This document shows positions 38,879-43,430 of a stretch of DNA of 64,000 bases, piece by piece. A model generated the notes under the pieces. The model ran no database searches and had not been told where the DNA came from. It saw only the letters and a list, made by a program, of their open reading frames with translations. Source of the DNA: an uncultured Saprospiraceae bacterium (lineage in GTDB: Bacteria > Bacteroidota > Bacteroidia > Chitinophagales > Saprospiraceae); contig CALLAW010000011.1 of assembly GCA_938001865.1 (NCBI GenBank), forward strand, positions 1 through 64,000, in the 5' to 3' direction. Each line of letters begins with the position of its first letter. Position 1 is the first letter of the stretch. Made by a program: the position numbers and the translations under genes.

Positions 38879-41257
38879 TTAGCTCCCACATGAGAGACAT
38901 CCATCTTCCATTGAGCAAGTTTCTCCTTCTGCGGCTTCTAAGTCCATGACTTCTGCACCTTGAGTTTGATTATTAAATTTGTTTTGGTGCTTAGAATTCA
39001 ATGTAAACTTAATTGCTTCGGCAGCTGCAGTACTTCTCAGGTAGTACATACCAGTTTTTAACCCAGCCTTCCAAGCATAGAAGTGCATACTAGAGAGTTT
39101 TTTGAAGTTAGGATCTTTAACGAAGAGATTAAGACTCTGACTTTGACAGATATATGCTCCTCTATCAGCTGCCATGTCTATAATAACTTTTTGGCTAAGT
39201 TCCCAGACACCTTTGTAAAGTGACTTGATATCTGCTGGAATTTCTTCAATATTCTGTACGCTTCCGTTTGCGGCCATTACTCGTTCTCTCATATCATTGT
39301 TCCATAGACCAAGGCTTACGAGATCTTTGAGTAGATGCTTATTGACTACGATATACTCGCCAGAGAGTGTTCTACGTGTATAGATATTAGTAGTGTAAGG
39401 TTCAAAGCATTCATTGTTACCTAGTATCTGAGATGTAGATGCAGTTGGCATCGGAGCTAGTAATAAGCTATTCCTCATTCCATCCTTCTTGATATTTGCT
39501 TTGAGAGTCTTCCAATCCCATCTATCACTTGGCGTGACATTCCACATATCATATTGGAGGATTCCTTTACTCGCTGGACTTCCTTTGTAGCTTTCGTAAC
39601 TTCCATCTTTAGCCGCTAGAGCATTGGACTCAGTCACTGCTGCGAAGTAGATAGTCTCGAAGATATCTTTATTGAGCTGTCTAGCTTCCAGACTATCGAA
39701 TGGTTGTCTCATCAAGATAAAGGCATCTGCTAATCCTTGGACACCAATCCCTATCGGCCGATGTCTCATATTGCTATTCTTAGCCTCTATTACCGGATAG
39801 TAATTAATATCAATAACCTTATTGAGATTACGTGTAATGACTCGGGTAATCTCATAGAGCTTTTGATGGTCAAATTCTTTAGTCTCAGCGTTGACAAACT
39901 TAGGCAATGAGATAGATGCAAGATTACATACTGCAACTTCGTCTTTGGATGTATACTCCATTATCTCAGTACAGAGATTAGATGATCTGATTGTTCCAAG
40001 ATTCTTTTGATTGGATTTCTCGTTGGCTGCATCTTTGTAGAGTATATAAGGTGTCCCAGTTTCTATCTGTGACTCCAATACGGCAAACCAAAGATCTCTT
40101 GCTTTGATAGACTTCCTCCCTCTGCCTTCAGCTTCATATTTCTCATAGAGTTCTACAAATTTGTCACCATAGACATCAAAGAGACCTGGAGCTTCGTTAG
40201 GGCAAAATAGCGTCCATTGGCCATCTTCTTCTACCCTCTTCATGAAGAGATCAGGCATCCACATAGCGTAGAAGAGATCCCTAGCTCGCATTTCTTCCTT
40301 ACCATGATTCTTCTTCAAGTCTAAGAAGTCATAGATGTCAGCATGCCATGGTTCGAGATAGACCGCAAAGGCACCTTTACGCTTACCCCCTCCTTGATCG
40401 ACATATCTTGCAGTATCATTGAATACTTTGAGCATAGGTACGATACCGTTAGATGTCCCTCCTGTGCCTTTGATATATGATCCCTTAGCTCTAATATTAT
40501 GTATAGATAGTCCGATTCCACCGGCTGATTGTGAGATTTTAGCACATCTTGTCAGTGTTTCGAAGATACCAGTGATGCTATCATCAGTTGCTGAGAGCAA
40601 AAAACAAGATGACAACTGAGGCTTAGGAGTCCCTGCATTAAATAATGTTGGTGTCGCATGCACAAACCATTTCTCCGACATCAGATTATATGTTTCGATT
40701 GCTGAAGCGATATCATCGCCGTGGATACCTACGGATGCTCTCATGAGCAAATGCTGTGGTCTCTCTACAATTTTGTTATCAGCTTTGAGGAGGTATGATC
40801 TCTCTAGAGTCTTGAATCCAAAATAATCAAAGTTATAATCACGATCATAAATTATGGCAGCATCAAGGCTTTCTCCATACTTCCTAATGATAGCCATAGT
40901 TTCATCACCAATGAGTCCGGCTTTTTCTCCAGTCTTCGGATCTATATAGTTGTAGAGAATTTCCATCGAAGCTTCAAATGATTTCTCAGTTTGCTTATGG
41001 AGGTTAGATATTGCAATCCTAGCTGCTAACAACGCATAGTCAGGGTGTTGCGATGCCATAGAAGCAGCTGTCTCTGCAGCTAGATTATCCAATTGATGAG
41101 TTGTCACACCATCAAATAATCCTTCGATTACTTTCTTAGTAATAGCGATATAGTCTACGAATTCTGTGTTTAGACCATAACACAGTTTCTTAATTCTTGC
41201 AGTGATTTTGTCGAAGATCACGTCTTGGCGCTTGCCATTTCTCTTTACTACTTGCAT
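38879..41257 (-). CDS. nrdA: Ribonucleoside-diphosphate reductase, alpha subunit
   Basis: Large subunit of class I ribonucleotide reductase, which makes deoxyribonucleotides aerobically. The 792-residue protein has an ATP-cone at the N-terminus ([20 protein letters not shown]), the first active-site Cys in LSSCFLL, the catalytic N-L-C-T-E motif (NLCTEI), the second redox Cys in [11 protein letters not shown], the radical-transfer tyrosine pair in GMYYLRST, and a C-terminal thiol pair in EDGCLSCGS that is reduced by thioredoxin/glutaredoxin. It lies downstream of nrdB in the same direction with 194 bases between them, an order reverse to that in E. coli. Confidence 0.96.
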
Positions 41258-41451: not shown

Positions 41452-42429
41452 TTAAAAATCAGCGTCCAGCTCGAATGTCTGTTCATCCTTACTCGTACCT
41501 ACTCCGGCTTTTCGATAATCTCCCACTCGTTTTTCAAAGAAATTAGTTTTTCCTTGAAGGGAGATAAGATCCATCCAAGGGAATGGATTCTCTACATTAT
41601 AGACTTTTGGATTACCCAAGGCGTCTAGGAGCCTATCTGCTACGAATTCGATATACTGACACATCAGTACTTCATTCATTCCAATGAGTTTTACTGGGAG
41701 TGCATCACTTACAAATTCTTTTTCAATCTCGACAGCATTTGTGATCATGTCATTTATCACTTTTTTATCGAGTTTGTTCTGTATATGACTATTGTACAGT
41801 AGGCATGCGAAATCACAGTGCATTCCTTCGTCTCTTGAGATCAGTTCATTAGAGAATGTCAATCCTGGCATCAGACCTCTCTTCTTCAACCAGAAGATAC
41901 TACAGAATGATCCAGAGAAGAATATGCCTTCAACTGCTGCAAATGCGATAAGTCTTTCTGCGAAATTTCCTTCATCAATCCATCTCAATGCCCAATCTGC
42001 TTTCTTAGCAACACAAGGCATGTTTTCAATCGCATTAAATAAGTAGTCCTTTTCTTTGGTGTCTTGGATATAAGTATCTATGAGTAGTGAGTAAGTCTCT
42101 GAGTGGATGTTTTCCATCATAATCTGGAAACCATAAAAGAACTTCGCCTCAGTATATTGGACTTCTCTTACCATGTTCTCAGCTAAGTTCTCATTGACGA
42201 TACCATCACTAGCTGCAAAAAATGCCAACACATGCTTAAGGAAATGCCTCTCATCATCACTCAACTTGTTTTCCCAGTCGACGATATCTTGGTGTAAGTC
42301 TATCTCTTCTGCAGTCCAAAACGAAGCTTCAGATTTCTTGTAAAAGTTCCAAATATCATCGTGTTCAATAGGAAAGAGTACAAAGCGATTAGGATTATCC
42401 TTAAGTAATGGTTCTATGTTTGTTGGCAT
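41452..42429 (-). CDS. nrdB: Ribonucleoside-diphosphate reductase, beta subunit
   Basis: Small subunit of class I ribonucleotide reductase, which holds the metal-radical cofactor. The 325-residue protein has the expected ligands: D75, E106 and H109 (E-x-x-H in MENIHSE), later Glu in [10 protein letters not shown] and the E-x-x-H pair in DEGMHCDF. Tyr113, four residues after H109, corresponds to the radical tyrosine, so this is a tyrosyl-radical type enzyme. It is transcribed before nrdA; 194 bases separate the genes. Upstream are a leftward -7 box, a short palindrome and two DnaA boxes. Confidence 0.96.
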
Positions 42430-42471
42430 CTGATTAATTAGTTGATCTTGTTGGTAAATTTATTGGGGTTA

Positions 42472-42479
42472 CAAATGTA
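42472..42479 (-). promoter_or_regulatory. -7 promoter box for nrdB
   Basis: Read leftward the sequence is TACATTTG, matching TAnnTTTG, and it would give a leader of about 35 bases before the nrdB ATG at 42429. A TTG-like -33 element at the usual distance is not evident. Confidence 0.5.
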
Positions 42480-42534
42480 TTACTTCATTTCATATATATT
42501 TTAATCCAATGAGTACTATTTCTATATATAAATT

Positions 42535-42548
42535 TTACACAAGTGTAA
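42535..42548. promoter_or_regulatory. Short palindrome upstream of nrdB
   Basis: TTACAC-AA-GTGTAA, a 6-bp inverted repeat with a 2-base centre, sits about 55 bases upstream of the predicted nrdB -7 box. It could be a repressor or activator site. It does not show the paired 16-bp NrdR boxes usual before nrd genes. Confidence 0.4.
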
Positions 42549-42671
42549 CTGATTCTATTTCAAAAGATATAGTGAAACATATGTAACTATATCATCATGA
42601 GTATGTCTCCGTAGCCGTTGCTCAAAGTAGAATACAAATTAAATGAATATAATTTTTAATATGTTTTTTCT

Positions 42672-42691
42672 TTATCAACAGCTGTGGATAA
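42672..42691. promoter_or_regulatory. Two convergent DnaA boxes
   Basis: TTATCAACA (42672-42680, one base away from the TTATCCACA consensus) and TGTGGATAA (42683-42691, a perfect consensus box on the opposite strand) face each other with two bases between them. DnaA is known to act on nrdAB expression in E. coli through such boxes upstream of the promoter. Here they lie about 195 bases upstream of the likely nrdB promoter and about 405 bases before the RRM gene. Confidence 0.65.
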
Positions 42692-43094
42692 CTCTCAGTG
42701 TATCTTTTTAGCACAAATGCTCTTTTGCGATTCATAGAATTCTCTAACATATTACAAATGAATACCTTATGTCATTGTGCAGTTGCTTGCCACACTTTTT
42801 TTATTGAAATTTAAATCATATTAAAATTATTGTAAATGTGTTATTTCTAGTGTTTTGAATTCACTCTGATTGAATATTTCAAAAATAATTGACGGTGTAA
42901 ATGGTATCGTTAAGTATCAACACGAAGCACAGAAATAAGATAAGGGAAGTTGTCACTCTATAAGATATTGAATTTTATCAAAATATAATATCTGATATGG
43001 AACTATTGAGGCACAATAATCGTACATTCGTATAGGAAGCGGTTGGAATCAGTTCTCCTCCTCTTCATTTTTATTATTTTTTAAATTATTTTTT

Positions 43095-43430
43095 ATGAAC
43101 ATTTTTGTAGCAAAGTTAAACTTTGACACACGAGAAGACGAATTACAAGGCGCTTTCGAAACATTCGGTGCTGTAGATTCAGTCAAAATTATTATGGACA
43201 AATTTACTGGCCGATCTAAAGGATATGGTTTTGTAGAAATGCCAAACGACGAGGAAGCATTAGCTGCAATCGAAGATCTTAACGAAGCGGAATTAGACGG
43301 TAGAACTATCGTAGTAAAGAAAGCACAACCAAGAGAGAAGAGTGATTTCAACCGAGGAGGAAACAGAGGCGGTGGATTTAACAGAGGCGGTGGAAGAGAT
43401 AACTTTGGCGGTGGAAGAGATAGATACTAG
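43095..43430 (+). CDS. Glycine-rich RRM RNA-binding protein
   Basis: A 111-residue protein with one RNA-recognition motif (about 1-78) and a Gly/Arg-rich tail. RNP2 (NIFVAKLNF) and RNP1 (KGYGFVEM) are intact, so it should bind single-stranded RNA. Proteins of this shape in Bacteroidota and cyanobacteria are often raised in the cold and act as RNA chaperones. The long region upstream may encode a regulatory leader. A strong terminator follows at 43469. Confidence 0.92.
   Translation: MNIFVAKLNFDTREDELQGAFETFGAVDSVKIIMDKFTGRSKGYGFVEMPNDEEALAAIEDLNEAELDGRTIVVKKAQPREKSDFNRGGNRGGGFNRGGGRDNFGGGRDRY

Follow-up and report, generated by a model that had tools for sequence, protein, structure and literature searches.

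A conserved inverted pair of predicted DnaA boxes at ribonucleotide reductase promoters of Saprospiraceae

The window, the whole 64,000-nucleotide stretch of DNA that was analyzed, is part of contig C11 of a 3.58-Mb genome in 108 contigs. It carries the two genes of a class I ribonucleotide reductase (RNR) and, in the intergenic region ahead of them, a short inverted element. The features are as follows.

38879..41257, minus strand: nrdA, the large subunit with an ATP cone, on the same strand as nrdB and downstream of it (ORF; PF02867, PF03477)
41452..42429, minus strand: nrdB, the class I RNR small subunit, presumed first controlled gene (ORF; PF00268, E 3.9e-118)
42430..43094, no strand: intergenic region between nrdB and the RRM gene, 665 bp (sequence)
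42635..42642, minus strand: promoter −7-like element TTAATTTG, 29 bp past the pair (consensus TAnnTTTG)
42672..42691, no strand: predicted proximal inverted (head-to-head) DnaA-box pair with a 2-bp core, GC (sequence; sole mismatch-free place in the genome; conservation in the family)
42672..42680, plus strand: DnaA-box variant TTATCAACA, C to A at position 6, also present in the origin cluster of the relative G088 (sequence)
42683..42691, minus strand: DnaA box TTATCCACA, perfect consensus, the upstream half as viewed from nrdB (sequence)
43095-43430, plus strand: RRM gene, divergent from nrdB (ORF)

The site at 42672-42691 reads TTATCAACA-GC-TGTGGATAA and lies 242 bp ahead of the nrdB start, just as an earlier note on this DNA had described it, with two facing boxes, one perfect on the lower strand and the other one base off. 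No regulator gene adjoining nrdB was recognized by eye among the ORFs of the window. The closest named relatives of the window NrdB are titled Saprospiraceae. Among solved structures, its closest matches are R2 chains named M2 and M2 B (E 5e-151), which we take to be those of mouse and human, and structures named beta subunit start only at E 3e-35. The eukaryote-like sequence of the window NrdB fits the transfer of a eukaryotic class I RNR into Bacteroidetes that is inferred in PMC3019208. A second genome of the same genus (G001, contig C31, locus L107) lacks an nrdB of the window type and has, of RNR proteins, only a distantly related small subunit and a different large chain.

Within the genome itself, single boxes and the pair behave differently. 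The 9-mer TTATNCACA occurs three times in the window against 3.75 expected, which places single boxes at background. The genome-wide count that the earlier note had called for gave 47 copies of TTATCCACA versus 25 of the reversed control, and in the relative G088 the same count showed no excess (59 versus 65). The inverted pair TTATCNACANNTGTNGATAA, by comparison, matches without any mismatch at a single place in the 3.58 Mb, making the window site the sole mismatch-free inverted pair of its kind, and with two or fewer mismatches it has five places versus one for the reversed control. It is the pair, not the single box, that carries the signal, and the observation made in the window is correct and not a product of chance.

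Conservation of the element was scored upstream of nrdB in related genomes as the cheapest inverted pair with a spacer of 1-3 bp, the cost being the mismatches to TTATCCACA, where T at position 3 or 5 and A at position 6 counted half. A pair at a cost of 2.5 or less was found in 46 of 47 upstreams, which amounts to all 46 scored Saprospiraceae loci because the sole miss (L033) belongs to G052, a member of another family of the order. With the same spacers, such a pair was present at none of 59 nrdB upstreams of other Bacteroidota, a set assigned from record titles, and in 3 of 1,880 dinucleotide shuffles, odds that overstate independence since the loci are related. At a cost of 1 or less the pair was still present in 31 of the 47 upstreams, with none in the other Bacteroidota and none in the shuffles; when spacers of 0-5 bp were allowed, 1 of the 59 other-Bacteroidota loci showed a weak pair (L180, spacer 4, cost 2.5). 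The 46 loci include L147, L148, and L155, titled Bacteroidota or Bacteroidia, which were counted as Saprospiraceae after their pairs had been seen and hence not blind, and L146, which qualifies through a spacer-1 pair alone, leaving 45 loci with a proximal pair at a cost of 2.5 or less. L031 and L214 (contig edges) and L034 (start not found by the pattern) were not scored, and L138 was dropped as a duplicate of L008. Absence of the pair from close relatives, which the earlier note had named as grounds for abandoning the proposal, is thus not what was found.

The 45 proximal pairs share a well-defined anatomy. T2, A7, C8, and A9 are invariant and T1 varies once in 90 half-sites, a regularity that selection by similarity partly favors, while position 6 carries C in 59 half-sites and A in the other 31. 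The spacer, scanned at 2-3 bp, is 3 bp in 39 loci and 2 bp in 6, the window among the latter; the 2-bp head-to-head spacing stressed in the earlier note holds for the window's own genus and gives way mostly to 3 bp elsewhere. A distal pair, its boxes 1 bp apart, is present 44-47 bp above the proximal pair in 22 of the 45 loci. Both pairs are found in Lewinella cohaerens DSM 23179 (L153), a cultured relative. The window's own genus is without the distal pair, and none was found in the 665-bp intergenic region of the window. Several of the 22 two-pair loci have an extra, directly oriented box 5 bp beyond the distal pair, and a perfect IHF consensus lies between the pairs in 9 of the 22 gaps, compared with 1.2% of shuffles.

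On the other side of the proximal pair lies a predicted promoter. The −7 promoter element has the consensus TAnnTTTG, and a match occurs 29-31 bp past the proximal pair in 30 of the 45 loci, compared with a mean of 3.3 and a maximum of 9 in shuffles. About 8 of the 45 loci have the element at 39-41 bp, a number within the shuffle maximum of 9; because this second distance is longer by roughly one helical turn, a bound protein would stay on the same face of the DNA, which is suggestive only. After the −7-like element, a short element, GTGAAACACTAT, recurs in the nrdB leaders of L018, L145, L150, and L152. A search of 10 source sequences, these four included, gave no match to a known RNA leader in Rfam.

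The strict form of the pair, TTWTCCACA-N1-3-TGTGGAWAA, was then sought in 199 family genomes and is present in 91 of them, the reversed control being present in 1. Among the 75 strict pairs in the matches listed, 50 lie 114-602 bp upstream of a class Ia nrdB match. Eight of the listed pairs precede the class II gene nrdJ (G080, G104, G093, G181 twice, G122 twice, and G206), and three precede dnaB (G131 C245, G185, and G189 C54). For another six (two in G029, two in G156, and one each in G081 and G135), the stretches read show no RNR gene alongside, and the remaining eight are at G032 C30, G004 C40, G131 C430, G207, G089, G124, G189 C34, and G133. Neighboring nrdJ, dnaB, and corA genes were checked with Pfam in examples and otherwise assigned by motifs and reading. 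In G031 both pairs also precede nrdJ. In G029 (C120:3568-3652, L082) and G156 (C113:32957-33041, L293), two species of one genus, both pairs stand before a SpoIIE-type phosphatase gene; the upstream genes differ, being corA in G029 and, by reading, an RNase Y-like gene in G156, and no RNR gene is adjacent. In G029 a UMP-synthase-like gene follows.

In 35 of 47 nrdB loci, including L008 and L010 of the window's own genus, corA lies ahead of nrdB on the same strand and runs toward it, and corA or a corA-like gene also lies ahead of nrdJ in G031, G093, G122, G181, and G206. The presence of corA before both nrdB and nrdJ suggests that a single promoter, in one position, drives RNR genes of two classes. 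Twelve of the 47 loci, the window among them, have no corA in the stretch, and 11 of these 12 still have the pair, which indicates that the element follows RNR, not the position next to corA. The suggestion in the earlier note that the pair might also serve the divergent RRM gene found no support, as the RRM start lies 403 bp away and corA is found on that side in the 35 loci; the RRM gene was rejected as a conserved partner on this ground.

Class II genes and other families were examined with the same score. Of 40 class II upstreams fetched, 38 were scored (L395 and L402 were too short) and 11 have a pair at a cost of 2.5 or less, compared with 0.09% of shuffles. Seven of the 11 belong to family f20, two to f16, one to f14, and one to Saprospiraceae (G034, whose class Ia genes have pairs too). 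The remaining 27 of the 38, which include all those of f3, f5, f8, f18, f19, and f21, are without a pair. Class II loci of the window's family that were chosen regardless of the pair have it in 3 of 7 cases, and no pair lies upstream of nrdJ in G010, G024, and G029. A separate set of 15 RNR upstreams, consisting of 14 loci from outside the family and L107 of the window's own genus (L098 and L106 were skipped), contains three pairs at a cost of 2 or less (G055, G041, and G044), all with 3-bp spacers, compared with 0.07% of shuffles. The trait is thus widespread but not universal. As judged from these sequence comparisons, the conserved inverted double DnaA box is a predicted part of the RNR promoter in Saprospiraceae and, less uniformly, in related families.

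Several lines of evidence bear on whether the binding protein is DnaA. Upstream of dnaB, the family has 25 boxes in 9.45 kb, spread over 16 of 21 loci, with 1 for the reversed control, and the dnaB gene and downstream stretches have 1 box in 63.7 kb; outside the family, boxes occur upstream of dnaB in 1 of 9 loci. Tandem double boxes with 2-3 bp spacers occur at 5 of the 21 family dnaB loci, including that of the window's own genome, where the second box is weak. Apparent as a second DnaA target, dnaB has its site in the window's genome at G000:C44:27528-27536 (L226), with others at L218, L222, L242, and L247. Near dnaA, nine boxes (TTATCCACA or TTTTCCACA) were found in 8 of 30 loci of about 3 kb; the 19 kb surrounding the window genome's own dnaA contain none of five 9-mers sought there. 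Domain IV of its DnaA aligns with that in structure 1j1v and keeps the RQ and DH.TV residues, which presumably contact DNA, with a T-to-S change between them (KDHSTV versus RDHTTV in E. coli).

The relative G088, assembled as one contig of 7.5 Mb, allowed an origin to be placed. Sampled GC skew stays below zero from 6.6 Mb through 2.0 Mb and is mostly above zero between 2.4 and 6.4 Mb; in 10-kb steps it reaches its minimum at the end of the 2,340-2,350 kb bin. That minimum holds two copies of TTATCCACA and two of TTATCAACA at 2,347,678-2,347,856, within 179 bp. The presence of both 9-mers at the skew-defined origin supports the box as well as the position-6 variant seen in the window. The perfect boxes of G088 cluster only here, where there are two, and before nrdB, where there are three within 90 bp. 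The probable origin (G088:C1:2347678-2349053; L315, L413) lies, by reading, between scpA-like and heme-A-synthase-like genes, and it carries a TTGATAATCAAT element resembling one that lies between the nrdB pairs.

NrdR boxes are the usual means of bacterial RNR regulation and form paired palindromic sites upstream of several RNR classes; they differ in sequence from the Saprospiraceae pair. The NrdR profile TIGR00244 matched none of 60 genomes, the same profile having matched 9 of 14 named control genomes, and membership in an NrdR regulon was rejected since the nrdR gene is absent from all 60.

Comparison with E. coli shows both similarities and differences. According to PMC11317965, DnaA of E. 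coli favors double boxes with a spacing of 2 or 3 bp, present at 15 of 16 ChIP-seq regions, and the double-box targets include nrdA and nrdD, the sites listed there being tandem. DnaA control of RNR has been demonstrated in E. coli and suggested for B. subtilis and Caulobacter (PMC8203912). The Saprospiraceae element resembles E. coli nrdA and nrdD, as those two sources describe them, in its 9-mer, in boxes 2-3 bp apart, in preceding RNR genes, and in being found at more than one RNR class. One half-site in the window is the perfect DnaA 9-mer and the other has a single change, and all 45 proximal pairs (scanned at 2-3 bp) have boxes at this distance, with 1 bp in the distal pairs. It is unlike E. 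coli nrdA, where the boxes are tandem (TTATCCACA-aag-TTATGCACT), in that the Saprospiraceae boxes are inverted, are often doubled 44-47 bp apart, and occur in genomes without NrdR. Being inverted and not tandem, the element is a variant of the E. coli nrdA type and not a member of it. The family dnaB boxes have the same 9-mers and 2-3 bp spacers, but they are mostly tandem or single, three strict inverted pairs preceding dnaB among the matches listed.

Facing boxes are also a property of the E. coli DARS1 and DARS2 core. According to PMC8682772, DARS boxes I and II are opposed, permitting head-to-head DnaA contact, and facing boxes are likewise present in the DARS1 stretch itself, where 5 bp separate them and a third box stands in tandem at 3 bp, the labels I, II, and III being our own assignment there. 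The Saprospiraceae element differs from DARS in having spacers of 1-3 bp, a place at the promoter, and, in part of the loci, an extra box on the other side; the DARS core of three boxes with I and II opposed at the DARS1 spacing is not found. In the open-licence literature searched, we found no report of DnaA-controlled RNR in Bacteroidota.

Collectively, we consider it likely that the element is part of a DnaA-controlled RNR promoter resembling that of E. coli nrdA, with inverted boxes and not restricted to a single RNR class. A connection between DnaA and dNTP supply, which the earlier note had drawn from E. coli nrdAB, is the best reading because of the conservation of the pair, its fixed distance to the promoter-like element, and the same 9-mers at the origin and dnaB, with DnaA as the predicted binder. 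Against it stand the 31 of 90 half-sites with A at position 6, which fall outside TTWTNCACA. Weak partner boxes with A at position 6 do, however, occur at datA and nrdD of E. coli (PMC11317965). Also weighing against it are the inverted boxes where those of E. coli are tandem, the six listed strict pairs without a neighboring RNR gene, the 27 of 38 class II upstreams and the nrdJ genes of G010, G024, and G029 that lack a pair, the presence of a strict pair in only 91 of the 199 family genomes, the second −7 distance that stays within the shuffle maximum, the missing distal pair in the window's own genus, and the KDHSTV sequence of its DnaA. That the DnaA-box likeness is a chance resemblance has next to no probability left: single boxes in the window do sit at background, but conservation across the family, together with the shuffle and other-Bacteroidota controls and the strict pattern found in 91 of 199 genomes versus 1 for its reverse, has already refuted it. 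Equally negligible is the idea that the nrdB region is a replication origin. The three perfect boxes in 90 bp at the G088 nrdB are the densest group in the list of perfect boxes, but the skew there changes sign at 2.34-2.35 Mb and nrdB lies at 0.30 Mb, inside one arm; since it sits 2.05 Mb from the skew-minimum origin, it is not oriC, and the 353-kb contig of G034 shows no skew change at nrdB either.

Two other explanations deserve more weight, though both are improbable. The pair could be mainly a site for DnaA titration or nucleotide exchange, like datA or DARS, that stands beside RNR by happenstance and controls it secondarily. Facing boxes and an IHF-like site between pairs do recall DARS and datA, and four genomes keep the element where no RNR gene adjoins it in the stretches read, as both pairs in G029 and G156 and as single strict pairs in G081 and G135, which leaves room for such a role. 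A happenstance location is at odds with the 50 nrdB and 8 nrdJ targets among the 75 strict pairs listed, with the fixed distance to the −7 element, and with the retention of the pair at 11 of 12 corA-less loci, by which it tracks RNR, and we regard this explanation as unlikely. Slightly less likely still is a dedicated dimeric regulator, distinct from DnaA, that replaces NrdR on these palindromes, with the DnaA-box likeness being convergent. Near-perfect palindromes concentrated ahead of RNR genes and the loss of NrdR from 60 of 60 genomes are what such a protein would predict, but the half-sites are DnaA 9-mers, the spacer can be 1, 2, or 3 bp long, and the distal pair often has one more box, directly oriented, 5 bp above it. 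Moreover, the 9-mer is found single and in tandem upstream of dnaB and again at the G088 skew-defined origin, and no candidate gene was recognized by eye beside nrdB.

On the favored reading, in which DnaA controls the RNR promoter, the pair would be a putative DnaA-binding operator, a 20-bp site immediately ahead of the promoter that takes up two DnaA molecules in a head-to-head arrangement. Roughly half of the family would bind another pair of DnaA molecules 44-47 bp farther up, in many cases with an IHF-like site separating the two pairs. By analogy with the E. coli system, bound DnaA would contact RNA polymerase and raise RNR transcription, and high ATP-DnaA would probably repress it. The supply of dNTPs would then follow the DnaA cycle, and the DnaA operator would stand in for the missing NrdR. 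A nucleotide switch and DNA bending at the RNR promoter would be part of this control. The supply of DNA precursors is thus probably tied to replication in Saprospiraceae.

A more far-reaching scenario is tentative and, on balance, doubtful. In Saprospiraceae and related families without NrdR, RNR would be run by the initiator itself through a portable head-to-head DnaA-dimer operator, with two dimers on an IHF-bent promoter loop that is nearer to DARS and datA than to tandem nrdA and senses whether DnaA carries ATP or ADP. The promoter on the corA side would have been kept while the enzyme was switched between B12-dependent class II and eukaryote-like class Ia, and in some genomes the element would have outlived the RNR gene.

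The element offers a concrete candidate operator for matching dNTP supply to replication in bacteria that lack NrdR. It suggests that DnaA double sites may be inverted as well as tandem, and its retention while the RNR class changes provides a natural experiment. The same signature points to more DnaA targets in Bacteroidota, at dnaB and the origin. The earlier note did not anticipate the second pair, the class II RNR targets, the lack of NrdR, or the difference from the tandem boxes of E. coli. In a single case, a strict inverted pair with a 2-bp spacer (G032:C30:24852-24871, L085) stands before a glutamine-synthetase-like gene.
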